Positions 2,639 to 38,815 of a stretch of 46,555 nt of DNA are shown piece after piece. A program made the translations under genes and the position numbers. The first letter of the stretch is position 1. Every line of letters begins with the position of its first letter. The DNA lies in assembly GCA_025362575.1 (NCBI GenBank), contig JANYIQ010000051.1, positions 1-46,555 of the forward strand, read 5' to 3'. Source of the stretch: Bacteroidia bacterium. Its GTDB lineage: Bacteria > Bacteroidota > Bacteroidia > B-17B0 > Aurantibacillaceae. Below the pieces are notes generated by a model. It had not been told where the DNA came from and did no database searches. It saw only the letters and a list, made by a program, of their open reading frames with translations.

Positions 2639-4912
2639 CTAAAATCCTCCATCAAACAAACTCTCCTCGATCGGCATATCCTTAATGGCATCCAATTCGT
2701 ATTTACTGCAATCGAGTTCAATTTCGCCTAAAGTTTTAGGGCGTTCAAAATCACCTTTGCTGACTTTTAAAGTTTTATCGGCGTAAACTTTGTTGTAGAA
2801 TTTGGCCCAGATCGGCAGCGCCATGCTCGCGCCCTGACCCTGATCGGTGGTGTTAAAGTGAACACTACGGTCTTCACCCCCCACCCACAAACCTGCGGCT
2901 AAGTCGGGGGTGTAGCCAATGAACCAACCGTCGGAGTTGTTTTGTGTGGTTCCGGTTTTACCGGCAATTTGATTGCGTAAATTAAAACGGAAACGCAAAC
3001 GCGAACCGGTTCCAATATCGCAAACGCCACGCATTAATTGTACCATCACGTATGCTTTTTCTTCGCTGAATACTTCGTCGGTGGTGGGAATGAATTCTTC
3101 CAGCACTTTTCCATTTTTATCTTCAATGCGCGTTACAAAAGTGGGTTGCACATAAGTTCCTTTGTTGGCAAAGGTAGCATTGGCAGCCACCATTTCGTAT
3201 ACCGAAATATCAGGCGTTCCTAAACAAATACTCGGAACCGCCTCCATTGGCGCAGTAATGCCCATGCGGCGCGCCAGGTTTACAACGGCGGTTGGACCAA
3301 ATCGTTTCATCAAAGCTGCACTTACATAATTAATAGAGTTGGCCAATGCAAAACGCAGCGTTACATTTTTATTCTCAAACTTTTCTTCACCGGCTGCATT
3401 ATCAGGACACCATTCTTTTCCTAAACCATCGGGTATGCAGGTACGCACATTCGGAATCTGATAACAAGGCGAATATCCTTCCTGAATGGCCATGGCGTAA
3501 ACAAATGGTTTAAAGGTGGAACCTACTTGTCGTCTTCCAACTTTTACGTGATCGTATTTAAAATGTTTGTGATTTATTCCTCCAACCCAGGCTTTAACAT
3601 AACCGGTTTGAGGTTCAATGGCTACAAAGCCTGTTTGCAGGAAACTCTTATAATACCGTATGCTGTCCCAGGGCGTTAGTGTGGTGTCAACATCTCCCCG
3701 CAAGGTGTAAACCGTCATGTTTACCGGTACGTGAAAATTCTTTTCAATGTCTTCAGGGCTCATTCCATTGCTGCGCAATAATCGGTAACGGTCGCTGCGT
3801 TTCATGCCTGATCGCATAATGGCGGCTATCTCTTCTTTTTTAACGTTCCACGCAAATGGGGCATTGCGTTTTGTTTTACACTCCTTATCAAAAACCTTTT
3901 GCAGTTCGGTCATGTATTCCTGCACGGCCTCTTCGGCATATTGCTGCATGCGCGAATCGATCGTTGTATATATACGCAAGCCATCGCGATAAATATTGTA
4001 TGGTTTTTTTGTTTCCGGATTAATGTGTGTTTCGCACCAGCTTTTTAAAAAGTTCTCGCGCAGGTATTCTCTGAAATAAGGTGCAGGCCCGTCGTTGTGG
4101 TCTTCCGGGCGAAATACCAGCCCCAGCGGTTTTACTTTAAGTGAATCAAATTGTGTCTGGTTAATGTAACCGTATTTAAGCATTTGTGCCAATACCACAT
4201 TGCGTCGGCCTTTGGTGGCTTCGGCACGTTTTGGATTTACAGGATTGAATAACGAAGGATTCTTGGCCATGCCTATTAACATGGCCGCTTCCTGCACTTC
4301 AAGACTATCGCAGGATTTATTGAAATAAATTTTTGCTGCCGATTTTATCCCCACTGCCAAATTCAAAAAATCGAATTTGTTGAGGTACATGGTCATGATC
4401 TCTTCTTTGGTATAATTTTTTTCGAGGCGCGCTGCAATTATCCACTCTTTAATTTTACGGGTAAGCAATTGCGTCTTGCTTAATTTTTCGCGTGGAAACA
4501 TCATCTTGGCCAGCTGCTGAGTAATGGTACTTCCACCACCTTTCGAGCCGCCGGTAACTGCTCCGGAAGCCGCACGAAACAAGGCTTTAATGTCTACCCC
4601 GCTATGCTCGTAAAAACGGGCGTCTTCGGTGGCGATCAGTGCTTTTGCAAGGTCGCTATCCAGATCTTTATAGCTAACGTTAACGCGATTCTCGTTATAA
4701 TATTTTCCTAAAACTTTTGCATCGGCACTGTATATAACGGTGGCCAGATTGCTCTTCGGGTTCTGCAATTCTTCAACGCTTGGCAGATCACCAAAAAACT
4801 CGCGGGCAATTAAGGATACTAAAAGAAAAATGATAATAAAGGGGGTCCATATCATTAACCAGGTAAGAGCAATGTATTTTGTGTTTTTGGCCACAGGTGG
4901 TTTTTGTTTCAA
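2639..4912 (-). CDS. Penicillin-binding protein 1A (class A PBP)
   Basis: A 757-aa bifunctional peptidoglycan synthase anchored in the inner membrane. A cytoplasmic tail of about 13 residues leads into one membrane helix (about 14-36). The GT51 glycosyltransferase domain follows, with the catalytic Glu at residue 96 (ATEDARFYEHSG) and GGSTITQQLAK. The transpeptidase domain has STFK near residue 464 (nucleophilic Ser), SIN in NSINYVSA, and KTG near residue 651 in AGKTGTTQNNSDGW. All key residues are present and the length is normal for the family. The reactions are glycan chain polymerisation from lipid II and peptide cross-linking in the periplasm. It is transcribed alone, away from the outer-membrane gene upstream. 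Confidence 0.95.
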   Translation of the reverse strand: MKQKPPVAKNTKYIALTWLMIWTPFIIIFLLVSLIAREFFGDLPSVEELQNPKSNLATVIYSADAKVLGKYYNENRVNVSYKDLDSDLAKALIATEDARFYEHSGVDIKALFRAASGAVTGGSKGGGSTITQQLAKMMFPREKLSKTQLLTRKIKEWIIAARLEKNYTKEEIMTMYLNKFDFLNLAVGIKSAAKIYFNKSCDSLEVQEAAMLIGMAKNPSLFNPVNPKRAEATKGRRNVVLAQMLKYGYINQTQFDSLKVKPLGLVFRPEDHNDGPAPYFREYLRENFLKSWCETHINPETKKPYNIYRDGLRIYTTIDSRMQQYAEEAVQEYMTELQKVFDKECKTKRNAPFAWNVKKEEIAAIMRSGMKRSDRYRLLRSNGMSPEDIEKNFHVPVNMTVYTLRGDVDTTLTPWDSIRYYKSFLQTGFVAIEPQTGYVKAWVGGINHKHFKYDHVKVGRRQVGSTFKPFVYAMAIQEGYSPCYQIPNVRTCIPDGLGKEWCPDNAAGEEKFENKNVTLRFALANSINYVSAALMKRFGPTAVVNLARRMGITAPMEAVPSICLGTPDISVYEMVAANATFANKGTYVQPTFVTRIEDKNGKVLEEFIPTTDEVFSEEKAYVMVQLMRGVCDIGTGSRLRFRFNLRNQIAGKTGTTQNNSDGWFIGYTPDLAAGLWVGGEDRSVHFNTTDQGQGASMALPIWAKFYNKVYADKTLKVSKGDFERPKTLGEIELDCSKYELDAIKDMPIEESLFDGGF

Positions 4913-5498
4913 AAGTAAGGATTTTAAGATAATGGAGGAATGTGTTTATTATTTAATTAGAGGTGGGGCTTCGAGGAGCGATGAGTAAATGGAACCTGCC
5001 TTGCCGGCAGGCAGGCGCAAATGCCTTCGGCATACACGGAAAGAAAGGATTTACGCGGATTTGATCATGCAATGTTTCGATGTTGCGTTTTTTATTCAGA
5101 ACAAAAAACTCCTTCTCCGTGAAACTTTGTGTTCTCCGTCACGACGCGTCGTGATCCATGGTTTAATTAAGATAATAGGAACCTGCCTGCCTGCCGGCAG
5201 GCGCAGATGCCTTTGGCATACACGGAAAGAACGGATTTAAAAGGATTTGTGTATTCAATGTTTCGATGTTGCGTTTTTTAACATGAAGTTTAAAGGCCAT
5301 TCTCTGTGAAACTCCGTGGTCTCTATCACGACGCGTCGTGATCCGTGGTTAACAAATCAAACTATCCCTTTGTGGTTGCTTTGCGTCTTTGACTCCGCTT
5401 CGCTTCGTCAAATCCACCTCCCATTTTAGGGGAGGTGCTGTTTCCGCTTTTAAGCAAAGATCTTTTCAGGAAACCTGACCTGAAAATTAAAAAAACTT
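4913..5498. repeat. D-type repeats with CCTGCCGGCAGG and TCACGACGCGTCGTGA palindromes
   Basis: Two copies (about 4990-5160 and 5170-5350) of a repeat containing 'gatgcctttggcatacacggaaagaacggattt' and 'gtattcaatgtttcgatgttgcgttttt'. Each carries a copy of the 12-bp palindrome CCTGCCGGCAGG or part of it, and each ends with the perfect 16-bp palindrome TCACGACGCGTCGTGA (5139-5154 and 5326-5341). Small open frames here only read the repeat and are not genes. Confidence 0.8.
5463..5486 (-). terminator. Possible stem-loop after the outer-membrane barrel gene
   Basis: Perfect 8-bp inverted repeat TTTTCAGG/CCTGAAAA with an 8-base loop, 12 bases beyond the stop of the minus-strand gene. It lacks a long T-run on the expected side, so terminator function is uncertain. 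Confidence 0.35.
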
Positions 5499-6215
5499 CT
5501 AAAACTTGAACGAAAGCCCTCCTTGTATCACCGACCATTTGTCGATCCCGAGCTCAGCATAAAAACCTACATTATCGGTAATGTAATAACGAAGTCCGGC
5601 GGTGATGGAAAAATAAACAGGAATTAAACCATTATACGTTTGTGTAGGTGGCAAGCTTGAATTTGGGTCGGTTGTACTGTACGACTCAGTGTATTTGTTA
5701 GCCGAATAACCTGCAGCAACTCCTGCATAAGGGTCTAACTTTTTGCCTGTGCCGAAGTGAAAATTGATGCGTGCGCCGGCTGAAAAACTGGTGTAGTACC
5801 ACTTGTACACATCAGTATAGCTTACATAATTTGAACTAGAGCCAAGATAGCTCTGATACGTTTGTGTTTGAGTGAGTGTAAAATTATAATAACCAAAAGA
5901 AGCGCCTACTGCCACAACTTTATTTAAACCATATTCGAACTTAAGAAAAGCAGGACCTAAACCTTTTATGTCGCTTACCACATTTGATGAGGAACCATAT
6001 GCTCCGTTTGTGCTGGAATTGGAATTCGCCGCTTTAAATATGGCTTTATAGATATTCGGAAAACCATAACCAACGGTTAACACCATCTTACCTTCATCAA
6101 AAGCTTTCTCGGGGTTTTCGTCTTTGCCTTTTGTTTTGTCGCTTGAAGACTGAGCACTTAAAAAGTTCACCGAACTGATAAAAATTAAGGCGATAAGAGA
6201 TTTAATTATTTTCAT
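5499..6215 (-). CDS. Outer-membrane beta-barrel protein
   Basis: A 238-aa protein with a signal peptide of about 21 residues ending in LSAQ, a typical Bacteroidota signal peptidase I site. After a short charged linker it consists of alternating strands rich in Gly, Tyr and Phe (for example FLKFEYGLNKVVAVGASFGYYNF and FSITAGLRYYITDNVGFYAELG), ending in an aromatic C-terminus (SFKF). This is the pattern of the small eight- to ten-strand outer-membrane barrels (OMP_b-brl class). No enzymatic motif is seen and the specific role is unknown. It is a single-gene unit; the 11-bp-phased array lies about 400 bases upstream of its start. Confidence 0.8.
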   Translation of the reverse strand: MKIIKSLIALIFISSVNFLSAQSSSDKTKGKDENPEKAFDEGKMVLTVGYGFPNIYKAIFKAANSNSSTNGAYGSSSNVVSDIKGLGPAFLKFEYGLNKVVAVGASFGYYNFTLTQTQTYQSYLGSSSNYVSYTDVYKWYYTSFSAGARINFHFGTGKKLDPYAGVAAGYSANKYTESYSTTDPNSSLPPTQTYNGLIPVYFSITAGLRYYITDNVGFYAELGIDKWSVIQGGLSFKF

Positions 6216-6620
6216 ATATGGTTTAGTTTACAATAAAGGTATTCTAATAAATTAAATCTGCAATTTTATTAGAGGCTACCGATGGGTATAGGGATTTTTA
6301 TGGGATAAACTTCGCTTCGCTCAGTGATTTTTAGGGGCTCCTTGGGCATCCCGAAGCGTTGGGACAGGATGACAAATGGAACCTGCCTGCCTGCCTGCAC
6401 AGATGCCTTTGGGCATACACGGAAAGAACGGATTTAAAAGGATTTGTGTATTCAATGTTTCCGTGTGGCGTTTTTTAGTTTGAAGCTTAACGTCCATTCT
6501 CTGTCACAACGCGTTGTGGGTAATCGTTGTTAAAGGGGGGGAGTAAGTCGCCAGGCGGTTCTTTAAAAAACATTTCGAAAAAAATAAATAGTTCTTCCTA
6601 TAATTTCCACCCCCTCTCTC
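6216..6620. repeat. D-type repeat upstream of the barrel gene
   Basis: A further D copy (about 6375-6520) with 'gcatacacggaaagaacggattt' and a variant palindrome CACAACGCGTTGTG (6505-6518). Compared with the copies at 5139 and 5326, both arms have changed together (GAC..GTC to AAC..GTT). No gene seen. Confidence 0.7.
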
Positions 6621-6796
6621 ATACTCTTCTAATACATGTCTCATACTTTTGTAATACCTCTTGTATAGCTCTTCCCCGTAGTACCCATACATAGGCCATA
6701 CACTAAGCATACACTCCTCATACATTAAGCATACACTCCTGATACACTTTCCATACACTCCTCATACTCTCTTCATACATTAAGCATACACTAAGC
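6621..6796. repeat. 11-bp phased repeat array with ATAC at the start of each unit
   Basis: ATAC starts at 6621, 6632, 6643, 6654, 6687, 6698, 6709, 6720, 6731, 6742, 6753, 6764, 6775 and 6786; the phase is kept at 6665 by ATAG and is broken only at 6676. Units are 11 bases, for example ATACACTCCTC, ATACATTAAGC and ATACACTAAGC. The right half is nearly regular and the left half degenerate. A spacing close to one helical turn puts the ATAC steps on nearly one face of the DNA. There are no spacers, so it is not CRISPR. Confidence 0.9.
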
Positions 6797-7535
6797 CTGC
6801 ATTTTCAAAAAAGATCAATTATTTTTAGGGTAAAAACACCCTTTTTTACAGGTGTTTATACGGTGGTAAAACAGCCCTGAATACTGTAAAAGTAAAGCAC
6901 ACCGGGGTTTTTAAAAAGGCCGCATCGCCCGTGCTCTCAAAATTTTGAGTATTGGCGGGGCTTGCAGATCAGGTGCCCATGACCAAAAAAGATATTAGAA
7001 CCAGATTAGATTAACATGTAATAATAAACAATTAATTGTGTTAAAGTGCCCTATTTTAGGTCATAAACAGGCAAAAATGACCCATAAAATATGTATATTC
7101 GCAAAGCAATACTTCGGCCTCTCTTATATGTTAAATGGGACCGAAGAGGCGAAGCTTTGAATACACAAACGAAGCTTATAATTTTGAAAATCAGTAGTTT
7201 AAATCAAAATTGGCCCCCATACCAATTCATTCAAGATCAAAGCAAATTCTAATGACGATCTTTTTTTGAAAACAATTTATTTACACAGCAATTTCCGGTT
7301 CTTATCAGGAACTCATTCCGGAAACGATGTAAGAAATGAACCACTAGAAGAATTGAAGAGATCAAAAATAAAAAACGCAACATCGAAACATTGAATATAC
7401 AGATCAGCCTCACCCTCGGTCCCTTTGATGGCAGAATTACTTTTGCTTTTTGCGCCATCGAATCCTGTGGATTTCCAAAGGAGAGGGAAGAAGAGGCAGG
7501 GTAGCGAGGAATAATTTTATCATAATAAAAAACGC
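6797..7535. other. Gene-free region with palindromes and a possible small RNA
   Basis: No convincing protein gene. It contains a short GGGT/ACCC hairpin followed by six T (about 6829-6846), a perfect 14-bp palindrome CTCAAAATTTTGAG (6936-6949), an inverted pair GGTCAT/ATGACC (7059-7064 and 7077-7082) just before a TATATTCG-like promoter sequence (about 7092-7099), and a bulged hairpin CTTCGGCCTCT/AGAGGCGAAG at about 7112-7155. The order of operator-like pair, promoter-like box and hairpin could be a small RNA gene, but nothing proves transcription. Confidence 0.4.
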
Positions 7536-7850
7536 CACTCAGAAACATTGAATACACAAATCCTTTTAAATCCGTTCTTTCCGTGTATGCCGAAGGCATC
7601 AGCGCCTGCCTGCCGGCAGGCAGGTTCCCATGGTTTCTAAGCTTTATACTAAAAAACGCCACTCAGAAACATTGAATACACAAATCCTTTTAAATCCGTT
7701 CTTTCCGCGTATGCCGAAGGCATCTGCGTTCTATTGCCAATAGAATGTGGATTTATAAAAAATAAAAAACGCAACACCGAAACATTGAATACACAAATCC
7801 TTTTAAATCCGTTCTTTCCGTGTGTCGCCAAAGGCGATCCGAGTTCCCAT
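7536..7850 (-). repeat. Inverted D-type repeats (three copies)
   Basis: Three copies of the D repeat in reverse orientation, at about 7536-7632, 7650-7725 and 7765-7845. Each reads 'aacattgaatacacaaatccttttaaatccgttctttccg' and is followed by variants of 'tatgccgaaggcatc'. The first ends with the CCTGCCGGCAGG palindrome. Open frames here translate only the repeat. Confidence 0.8.
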
Positions 7851-13201: not shown

Positions 13202-14569
13202 GTGGCAAAGAAGTTGTTAAACAAAATTTATAATCTATTAAACGTTAAAAGTGAGCGTACTAAAAATATTACAAAACATGTTCTTTTATCTTTTTTTTAT
13301 AAAGGGGGGAGCATGTTATCTACTTTTTTGTTAGTTCCCCTAACTATAAATTATCTTGAGACTGATAACTACGGCGTTTGGTTGACATTAAGTTCATTTA
13401 TTGCATGTTTTTCTTTTTTTGATATCGGACTAGGGTATGGCTTGCGTAATAGATTTGCAGAGGCTAGAGCCCAAGGTAACAAACAACTTGCAAGAGCATA
13501 TGTTAGTTCAGCTTATTTCACAATTGGTATTCTTTGTTTGTTCTTGATTATTGTTTTCGTTGCGATTAATTATTTCGTAGACTGGACAAAAGTTTTTAAC
13601 ACAAATTCTACCGTTAAAAAAGACCTCACTTTATTAATGCCCATAGTATTTACTTTCTTTTGTTTGCAATTGGTGGCCAGCCTAATCACCACTATTTATG
13701 CATCTGACTTAAATCATTCTATGCCGGGGAAGATAAACTTTTTTACACAAGTCGGTTCATTATTATTTCTTTGGTTGGCGACTTTATCAATAAAAAGTTC
13801 ACTATTAATTTTTGGAATAATTATTTCTGCTGTTCCTGTATTAATTTTACTATTTTTAAATTTTTTCGCTTTCTTAAAGACGTATAAAGATTTTAAGCCA
13901 ACTAGTAAATTATGGAAAAAAAAATACTTGAAAGACATATTTGGTTTAGGGCTAAGTTTTTTCTTCGTTCAGATGGCATGGATTGTAATCTCCACCACAG
14001 ATAGCTTTATTATTGCTCAATTGTATTCACCAAAGGAGGTCGTCCCGTATAGCATTGCAATGAAATATTTTAGTATTCCATTAATGATGTTAACTATTAT
14101 TGTTGCACCATATTGGTCATCCTTTACTGAGGCAGTTATTAAAAATGATTTTGTATGGATCAAAAAGGCCATAAAAAATTTGAGAATATTAGCCATTGGG
14201 TTTTGTTGCATGTGTATTTTGTTGTTGTTTTTGTCAAAGTATATGTACAAAATGTGGTTAGGTGATGAAATTTTAATTCCATTTAAATTAAGTGTAAATA
14301 TTTGTATATATACTTGTTTAATTATTTATCTGACCCCATTGAATTATTTTATTAATGGCATTGGCAAAATTAAACTTCAATTGTATCAAACTTTGGTTTT
14401 TGCAATGCTAAATATACCTGTTTCTATTTTTTTGGCGAAATACTTGCAATTAGGAGTAGAAGGGGTTGTGTTGGGCTCAATATTATGTATAGTTCCTAGT
14501 GTTATTTTGTCCAGCATTCAAAATAATAAAATTATAAGCAAGAAAGCTTCTGGAATATGGAATAAATAA
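13202..14569 (+). CDS. Wzx-type polysaccharide flippase (first of two)
   Basis: A 455-aa protein with about 12 membrane helices, a member of the MOP/MATE-fold polysaccharide exporters. N-terminal FYKGGSMLSTFLLVPLTINYLETDNYGVWLTLSSFIACFSFFDIGLGYGLRNRFAEA is typical of the family (helix 1 and the first loop with its YG and DxGxxxxxRN pattern). It is expected to flip undecaprenyl-linked oligosaccharide units across the inner membrane. The start is GTG at 13202, ten bases after the previous stop. The sequence is AT-rich like its neighbours. A second, only distantly similar flippase lies at 15216. Confidence 0.85.
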   Translation: MAKKLLNKIYNLLNVKSERTKNITKHVLLSFFYKGGSMLSTFLLVPLTINYLETDNYGVWLTLSSFIACFSFFDIGLGYGLRNRFAEARAQGNKQLARAYVSSAYFTIGILCLFLIIVFVAINYFVDWTKVFNTNSTVKKDLTLLMPIVFTFFCLQLVASLITTIYASDLNHSMPGKINFFTQVGSLLFLWLATLSIKSSLLIFGIIISAVPVLILLFLNFFAFLKTYKDFKPTSKLWKKKYLKDIFGLGLSFFFVQMAWIVISTTDSFIIAQLYSPKEVVPYSIAMKYFSIPLMMLTIIVAPYWSSFTEAVIKNDFVWIKKAIKNLRILAIGFCCMCILLLFLSKYMYKMWLGDEILIPFKLSVNICIYTCLIIYLTPLNYFINGIGKIKLQLYQTLVFAMLNIPVSIFLAKYLQLGVEGVVLGSILCIVPSVILSSIQNNKIISKKASGIWNK

Positions 14570-32044: not shown

Positions 32045-32899
32045 ATGAAAAAGTCATTTATTAAAACAAGCTCATTTAAAGAACATTTGGTAAAACGATC
32101 AGACAGTCCGGATCTTCATCGATTTGATATAGTGGCTTTGCCCGGCGAAGCAGCAGATTTTAGATCTAAAGCTAAATTTTCAATGTCGCAGTATTGCAAT
32201 ACCTTGCTGCAGAAGCTTTTTGATCTCGAAAAATTTCTTGTAAAAGCATTTGTCAAATATCATTGCACTCAAGTTAATGAGCCCTTGATCTGGTTAAATA
32301 GCCTCGAAGAACTTATTATTCTTAATCTTGATTTCGAATTATCCGAAAAACAGCATGTTAATGCACAGGAAGCACTTAAGATCATTGTTGAATTACAGGA
32401 ACAGTTCAGTCGCTCTCAGCATAGGCCCTATAGTCGGCAAAATTTAAATGCCTTTAAAACCATCGAAGAAAAAGTGGCTTACCTGTTAAAACTAAAAGAC
32501 AGTCAAAAAACTCTGGAAATTGATCTTTCAAACGAATTAAGCTTTAATGATAAAATAGAAAGAGAGTTAGTGTTTTTAAAAAGCATATTGGCGATCGCAT
32601 TAAAAAATAAAAATGACTTTAATAAAAACACCGGCAATGTGCCGGCGAAACAATACCAATTTAAATTGAACATAAACACCAATAGATTTGTGAATGTGTT
32701 TTATGAGATGATGTACGAAAAAGAGATCGATGGTAAACCTTTTCTTGAAGCTAAAGCCTCTGAACTTGCAGAATTTATCACTTATAATTTCATTGATAAA
32801 AACGGCAAAACAATACCCGTAAATACTGTAAAAACAATTTTGAAACCTTCCCGCATCGAAAAACGCCCCAAAGGCTTTTCAGACTTTTTTCTGAATTAA
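32045..32899 (+). CDS. Hypothetical protein with RteC-like C-terminus
   Basis: A 284-aa cytoplasmic protein without membrane segments. The N-terminal 190 residues are mostly helical and charged (SMSQYCNTLLQKLFDLEKFLVKAFVKYHC). The last ~75 residues (FKLNINTNRFVNVFYEMMYEKEIDGKPF, then ELAEFITYNFIDKNGKTIPVNTVKTILKPSR) look like the winged-helix-like end of RteC and related proteins found in Bacteroidota conjugative transposons. That match is by eye and moderate. GGGGAC lies about 88 bases upstream. Together with the HTH genes nearby it suggests a remnant or relative of mobile-element regulation, but no transfer genes are seen. Confidence 0.6.
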   Translation: MKKSFIKTSSFKEHLVKRSDSPDLHRFDIVALPGEAADFRSKAKFSMSQYCNTLLQKLFDLEKFLVKAFVKYHCTQVNEPLIWLNSLEELIILNLDFELSEKQHVNAQEALKIIVELQEQFSRSQHRPYSRQNLNAFKTIEEKVAYLLKLKDSQKTLEIDLSNELSFNDKIERELVFLKSILAIALKNKNDFNKNTGNVPAKQYQFKLNINTNRFVNVFYEMMYEKEIDGKPFLEAKASELAEFITYNFIDKNGKTIPVNTVKTILKPSRIEKRPKGFSDFFLN

Positions 32900-33334
32900 T
32901 TTTTCCTTTCCCATTTTCCCCTTCCAACCTTCCAACCTTCCAACCTTCAATCTGCAATCTTCACTTTTCCCTTTTCATTTTTCACTTCTCCCTTTTTCCC
33001 TTTCCAACTTTCAACTTTAAACCTTCAATCTGTAATCTGCCAATCTTCAATCTGTAATCTGCCAATCTGTAATCTGCCAATCTTCACTCTTCACTCTTCC
33101 CTTCTCCCTTTCCAACCTTCAACTTTAAACTTTCCAAATTAAACTTTAAACCTTCAATCTGTAATCTGCCAATCTGTAATCTGCCAATCTTCACTCTTCA
33201 CTCTTCCCTTCTCCCTTTCCAACCTTCAATCTGTAATCTGCCAATCTTCAATCTGTAATCTGCCAATCTGTAATCTGCCAATCTGTAATCTGCCAATCTT
33301 CAATCTGCCAATTTGCAATCTTCAATCCAAAACA
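32900..33334. repeat. Tandem oligomer repeats (CAATCTGTAATCTGC, CTTCCAAC types)
   Basis: The 435 bases are built from short words: 'ccaatctgtaatctg' (15 bp, many copies, some as exact tandems), 'ccttccaa', 'ttcactcttccc' and 'ttcaactttaaac'. Longer blocks such as 'cactcttcactcttcccttc' recur at about 33084 and 33191, so the array has grown by duplication of segments. It carries almost no G except in 'ctg', giving a strong pyrimidine skew. No gene is seen. Confidence 0.85.
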
Positions 33335-36320: not shown

Positions 36321-36351
36321 TAACATAGTTTATTAACATAAGCCGATCACT

Positions 36352-36430
36352 CATCACTCATCACTCATCACTCATCACTCATCACTTAACATTCATCACT
36401 TATCACTCATCACTTAACATTCATCACTCA
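36352..36430. repeat. Short tandem repeats (CACTCATC)
   Basis: Octamers CACTCATC in tandem, then variants 'cacttaacattcatca'. Related sequence recurs at 38741-38815. Confidence 0.8.
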
Positions 36431-36440
36431 AAAGATACTT

Positions 36441-36495
36441 GTACTCATCCTGTACTCATCTTGTACTCAAACTGTACTCATCCTTTACTCTTGTT
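36441..36495. repeat. Second 11-bp phased array, upstream of HTH paralog 2
   Basis: GTACTCATCCT, GTACTCATCTT, GTACTCAAACT, GTACTCATCCT and TTACTCTTGTT start at 36441, 36452, 36463, 36474 and 36485. The period is the same as in the array at 6621-6796 and the TAC core is shared. Confidence 0.85.
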
Positions 36496-36561
36496 TTACC
36501 AACTTAATAAGCTTTGGGCCTTAGTCGATCAGACTCAAAAACAAGGCAATGCAAAAAAATT

Positions 36562-38639: not shown

Positions 38640-38815
38640 TTGTCTCGTGTCGTGTCGTGTCGGGATTTGGCCTTCTTTATATTTGTATTTAGTAAATAAA
38701 GAACTAATTGTTTCAATGGATAAAAAGGAACCTTCATTTTAATTCATCATTCATCACTTATCTCTCACCACTTATCACTCATCTCTCATCACTCATCACT
38801 TATCACTTATCTCTG
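38640..38815. repeat. Microsatellite-like repeats
   Basis: (TCGTG)n at about 38645-38662, then CATCACT(T/C)ATC-type tandem repeats at 38741-38815 of the same sort as those at 36352. No gene seen. Confidence 0.7.

Follow-up and report, generated by a model that had tools for sequence, protein, structure and literature searches.

MIRU/VNTR-type minisatellites are tandem arrays that lie scattered between genes and vary in copy number, and the ParR/parC partition sites of R1-type plasmids consist of two blocks of 11-bp direct repeats with a gap between them. Binding sites of the OmpR/PhoB family are direct repeats spaced 11 bp centre to centre, and an ArcA site carries between two and five of them, in most cases at 11-bp spacing (PMC3798270). 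REP/BIME elements, in turn, are the targets of the IS3-family elements IS1397, ISKpn1, and ISPsy8 (PMC1525189).

The array described here lies in the window (the whole stretch of 46,555 nucleotides that was analysed), and it belongs to a family that resembles each of these systems in part. With MIRU/VNTR-type minisatellites, these arrays share a dispersed, intergenic, tandem organization and a variable copy number, but their unit is much shorter, it is locked to the helical turn, and conservation within it is strongly uneven. The two-block 11-bp layout with a gap is common to the arrays and to parC, whereas the former occur several times per chromosome and are absent from congeners; no parM or parR gene was found adjoining them. 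In common with ArcA, PhoB, and OmpR sites, they show 11-bp direct repeats and a short conserved core, with putative cooperative binding on one face; those sites, however, hold 2–5 repeats in promoters, while the arrays hold 13–21 outside promoters and without an adjoining regulator (PMC3798270). The likeness to REP/BIME elements lies in short, dispersed, intergenic repeats that lie next to IS3-family elements and mostly outside promoters (PMC1525189). Yet REPs are palindromes, whereas the arrays are direct 11-bp repeats with variable spacer bases, and an IS3-type terminus abuts the array rather than breaking it at a fixed base. The units of the window array are direct repeats in a single orientation, and no hairpin palindrome of the REP/BIME kind was seen among them.

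In the window array, ATAC begins 14 of 16 consecutive 11-bp steps between 6621 and 6796 (steps counted from 6621 to 6786 in the 11-base reading); the two remaining steps are ATAG at 6665 and no match at 6676. This bears out the count of the initial annotation, which had reported ATAC at 14 of 16 steps and ATAG at one more. When the 176 bases were shuffled 5,000 times with dinucleotides preserved, phased ATACs averaged 1.4 and never numbered more than 5. The fuller unit, read from 6620, is CATAC-ACT-NNN, in which the last three bases vary and the middle ones do so less. Column entropies are 0.3–0.7 bit within ATAC and 1.2–1.9 bits elsewhere in the unit. Only part of the array, with periods of 11 and 22, is picked up by Tandem Repeats Finder.

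The array is organized in three parts, namely units 1–4, two coreless units, and units 7–16 (Table 1). Counterparts of the left block are found in two further arrays of the same genome, on contigs C96 (L020 3134–3166) and C18 (L021 5974–6006), and in Chitinophaga copies; in the right block, AAG and CCT partly alternate and form a 22-bp super-repeat. To the left of the array, about 400 bp away, is the start of a minus-strand gene (6215), to which the array is upstream; to its right is a plus-strand gene (7896). Taken singly, this copy could be regulatory. No transposase was found in or beside the window array. A coding reading was rejected because 11 is not divisible by 3, and a minus-strand ORF overlapping the array (6504–6758) is without support and takes in arbitrary spacer sequence. 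Around the array, a dispersed intergenic repeat of about 100 bp, TTTAAATCCGTTCTTTCCGTGTATGCCGAAGGCATC, occurs at 4990–5310, 6378–6489, and 7361–7850, in several copies and both orientations.

Table 1. Coordinates of the phased repeat features in the window.
Feature	Position	Strand	Evidence
Left block, four phased units: CATACTCTTCT AATACATGTCT CATACTTTTGT AATACCTCTTG	6620..6663	+	11-base reading
Degenerate centre, two in-phase units: TATAGCTCTTC CCCGTAGTACC	6664..6685	+	11-base reading; comparison with the Chitinophaga centre
Right block, ten CATAC-ACT-NNN units	6686..6795	+	11-base reading, Tandem Repeats Finder, entropy
Second-family 11-bp array, TGTACTC-N4, about five units	36431..36497	+	Pattern and periodicity searches

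The window corresponds to contig C85 of a 4.32-Mb assembly in 327 contigs, and counts within this genome derive from pattern searches and a 538-kb sample. The genome-wide search for ATAC-N7 arrays that had been suggested in the initial annotation, run with four units, returned three places only: C85, C96 (3123–3298), and C18 (5974–6127). All three copies read CATAC-ACT-NNN, hold an exact 11-bp phase, and can be aligned over their length, with a common layout of 3–4 units, two degenerate units, and 8–10 units. They are unlinked; core, phase, and layout are common to them and spacer bases are not, and local alignments of the sequence outside the three copies gave short matches only, with no conserved flanks. 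A looser TAC-N8 search over six units, with three mismatches, added two TGTACTC-N4 arrays, on C85 and C18, and apart from these just two weak places with three mismatches, which brings the TAC-phased arrays to five in all (three CATAC, two TGTACTC-N4). The C18 member of the second family (14126–14200) lies in inverse orientation and has a stretch of 24 bp identical to the window one. The C18 CATAC array begins 9 bp past a stop codon (L021, ORF 4568–5965) and the C96 array lies 3′ of a DUF4421 gene (L020, 1908–3002), so that each closely follows a same-strand gene. Neighbouring ORFs belonged to other or no Pfam families, with no regulator or partition gene beside the arrays, in agreement with the initial remark that no obvious regulator adjoins the window copy.

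A periodicity scan over the 538 kb picked out periods of 11, 7, and also 15 in non-coding DNA, with neither 10 nor 12 among them. The window itself holds intergenic tandem arrays of 7-bp units (ATCACTC/TCATCAC) at 36346–36430 and 38744–38811, substituted and steady in phase, together with about 430 bp of mixed 7- and 8-bp repeats (CAATCTG/TAATCTGC) that run from a gene's stop codon at 32899–33327. CATAC arrays were absent from the seven congeners and 29 family members searched, two congeners, each scanned over 200 kb, yielded no non-coding array of period 11, and relatives differ in what lies downstream of the C96 neighbour gene, all of these comparisons being made with fragmentary and partly masked genomes.

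Chitinophaga ginsengisegetis carries 18 dispersed arrays of a single layout closely similar to that of the window array. The layout starts with GATACTTCTC-N units and GATACTTAGGA, passes through a 22-bp centre (CTCGTCTATGT GTCGTATTCCC), and continues with TATACAGTYCC, CATACTGTTCC, and then CATACACT units. The order of unit types and the kind of centre are alike across the 18 copies, and register is held over 143–231 bp (13–21 units per copy), with no out-of-phase insertion or deletion along the walked arrays. Among 187 right-block units, entropy is 0.05 bit at positions 2–4 versus 0.7–1.5 at most others. Substitutions relative to the nearest unit type number 10 in ATAC versus 129 in the other seven positions, a contrast somewhat inflated by the unit walk, which demands three of four ATAC matches. 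Most copies lie behind genes, with 7 in convergent, 10 in tandem, and 1–2 in divergent settings according to plain-ORF gene calls. The one site compared between species lies 3′ of purM; of 29 other Chitinophaga species examined there, 28 lack the array and the remaining one carries a different 11-bp array. Hence, the sequence family is kept and the position, at least there, is not; array position is species-specific at this single site.

Beyond these genera, a search for four CATAC-N6 units in one genome per GTDB species found at least 119 stretches versus a handful expected by chance, and the matches listed fall mostly in Bacteroidota and Rhodobacteraceae. Many of the Bacteroidota arrays match the window consensus into the spacers (CATACACTCCT, CATACACTAAG, CATACACTATC), and the consensus CATACACT followed by ATC, CCT, or AAG recurs in Flavobacterium, Hanstruepera, and others. 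Among the matches listed for an even draw of 395 genomes from the phylum, only four genomes, the source included, show the 11-11 phase, which indicates a sporadic trait. Rhodobacteraceae hold many short arrays, usually of four units (CATACG[CT]TTGC) and also at 11 bp (L293, L297, L301, L306, L310, L336, and others), with at least nine exact ones in Puniceibacterium sediminis. In one family of the same phylum, CATAC-NNN arrays have an 8-bp step, and inverted pairs occur among them (L486–L494, L498, L499, L503). Four phage contigs (L045, L051, L109, L112) bear 11-bp ATAC arrays with variable spacers next to an integrase/excisionase pair or close to a gene resembling a late regulator, these putative gene names coming from a reading of the proteins; a scan of viral contigs for five ATAC-N7 units gave, among the matches listed, mostly simple repeats. 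For 11-bp arrays in Flavobacterium, Chitinophaga, or Bacteroidetes, nothing on point was found in the open-access literature.

Several flavobacterial arrays end against an IS3-type terminus motif, TGACYCGTCCTRAAATARCTATACA. This motif was searched in 14 genomes picked for carrying CATAC arrays, and the outer flanks were inspected. The ends are of two kinds, a left one followed by orfA and a right-like one with further TCCTNAAATANCTATACA repeats inside, about 33 bp apart; the TATACA sites of the right-type terminus are likewise spaced by about 33 bp, or three turns. In these Flavobacteriia, an 11-bp array stands directly outside 16 of 19 right-end-like termini versus none of eight left ends (Fisher p 7e-5, with ends sorted by eye), and two of the three array-less right-end-like termini are cut by contig ends. 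The arrays outside the 16 termini have a best period of 11 (z 3.2–10.9). Six of them carry quite different motifs (TGGGAG-N5, ACGGAGTCACT, TTGGACTTATA, CATAGGATAGC) and were therefore not picked by the CATAC search. In several cases, the terminus continues the register of the array and its last 11 bases are repeated, the terminal 11-mer being doubled or tripled in register in L512 and L520.

Full transposase genes lie inside few termini (L518; partial in L444 and L512, with rve domains), and most are solo ends; the Chitinophaga neighbour gene in L444 is rve/rve_3. Terminal inverted repeats with TG...CA ends are clear in the flavobacterial relatives, and no target-site duplication was established. 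Most array-flanked termini lack an internal transposase gene, which counts against the transposase reading given below, and their mobility is putative. In one Bizionia genome (L543), arrays lie on both sides of one terminus and resemble the two-block window layout. The Bizionia loci L543 and L545 also hold several different 11-bp arrays close together (ACCCGAACTAG, ACGGAGTCACT, CATACATGAGC), and in L510, L519, and L527 complete IS3-type copies stand directly behind terminator-like hairpins with T runs. For the source genome, the window array shows a non-significant resemblance to such ends: a terminus weight matrix gave its best plus-strand match at the centre (p 0.0006 per position, which falls short of significance over the stretch as a whole), and no significant terminus was found in any of the three CATAC arrays. 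The only IS3-type end found in this genome is a remnant on C94, without an array. The centre of the window array is possibly a decayed IS3-type terminus, and the link of this copy to such termini would be one of family resemblance only.

Taken together, we consider it plausible, rather than probable, that the window array is a dispersed non-coding repeat of helically phased putative binding sites, which docks or targets an IS3-type transposase and belongs to a terminus-tied family. The element would span about 150–190 bp, its direct repeats with a CATAC or TATAC core set 11 bp apart to offer a row of candidate sites on one helix face, where copies of a protein would sit next to each other and bind cooperatively. 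Such binding is suggested by the fixed phase, the near-invariant core, and the free spacers in dispersed copies. The same sequence comparisons would place the window element in a wider Bacteroidota family of 11-bp arrays tied to the IS3-family-like right terminus, possibly by descent from a terminus-linked copy. Docking or targeting of an IS3-type transposase would then be the most likely role at the level of the element, with arrays and solo termini behaving as non-autonomous passengers or landing pads between genes. An IS3-type transposase is the best guess for the protein, given the termini, their TATACA sites three turns apart, and the way copies come and go from one species to another. 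Against the transposase, the unit motif changes between copies, so a single transposase would not read it by sequence. The initial annotation had taken the core at nearly one helical turn to suggest a cooperative or filament-forming protein. That suggestion gains from a phase that has not slipped in 3 + 18 copies and from substitutions falling outside the core, with the binding protein itself conjectural. Neither of the outcomes named there as counting against it, unphased arrays elsewhere or plain decay of identical units, was seen. Its picture of a conserved phased core stands, and it did not mention the dispersal, the block layout, or the abutment of flavobacterial relatives on IS3-type termini.

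Neutral minisatellites offer a rival account, in which slippage or unequal exchange amplifies the 11-bp units, recombination spreads them, and the phase is inherited through duplication of whole units. The varying unit number between copies, the 22-bp super-repeat, the abundance of other tandem arrays in the window (7, 15, and 22 bp), and the existence of pure minisatellites of the same unit (CATACACTATC in ten copies, L384) all fit this account. We nevertheless regard it as unlikely: the even spread of substitutions expected of a neutral minisatellite is seen neither in the Chitinophaga units nor in the window entropies, the core and layout recur in different classes, the walked Chitinophaga arrays keep their register, and arrays of different motif beside termini still have period 11. 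Quite unlikely is a chromosomal array that serves a cooperatively binding host protein as operator or centromere-like site, for example an OmpR/PhoB-type regulator, a partition protein like ParR, or a protein of the nucleoid. Here the window array does have the known OmpR/PhoB-family form of 11-bp direct repeats with a conserved half-site (PMC3798270), TGTACTC-N4 has a 7+4 form, and the phage arrays stand beside putative regulator-like or integrase genes. However, no regulator or partition gene adjoins the arrays, the C18 copy lies behind a gene end and the Chitinophaga copies mostly do so and avoid divergent promoters, rather than occupying the promoter of a regulated gene, the single position tested is not conserved between species, and 16–20 sites far exceed known response-regulator sites.

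Two further readings are weak. A Rho utilisation or other RNA-level element would exploit a G-poor, C-rich strand, unstructured as RNA, with pyrimidine-C pairs about 11 nt apart. The plus strand of the array has 54 C and 13 G, and the C18 and C96 copies follow same-strand genes, but the window copy lies upstream of an opposite-strand gene and Rho does not require an exact 11-nt phase. A Rho site should show a strand preference; among the Chitinophaga copies between tandem genes, 6 have the C-rich strand in sense and 4 in antisense orientation (p 0.75), and this candidate was set aside as very improbable. Intrinsically curved DNA, an option raised in the initial annotation together with a curvature check, has the 11-bp period in its favour and nonetheless appears scarcely credible: phased A-tracts are absent, and the bend of 27.5 degrees, from a wedge model, falls below the window median of 45 and is at or below that of 77% of all 176-bp window stretches.

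A broader proposal concerns the family as a whole and is possible but rather doubtful. It holds that these are undescribed Bacteroidota mobile repeats, in which IS3-type termini carry or create helix-phased 11-bp arrays of free sequence outside them, and array-only copies, such as that of the window, spread between genes as docking platforms or as products of templated 11-base addition. If the link holds, an IS family would be coupled to tandem arrays whose sole constant is one helical turn. Such an unusual design would indicate either that DNA geometry is what is recognized or that 11 bases are copied at a time, and many unexplained intergenic arrays of Bacteroidota would be accounted for. 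Even without the IS link, a dispersed repeat with a conserved, phase-locked core and free spacers is well suited to testing DNA-binding proteins that act cooperatively or form filaments.
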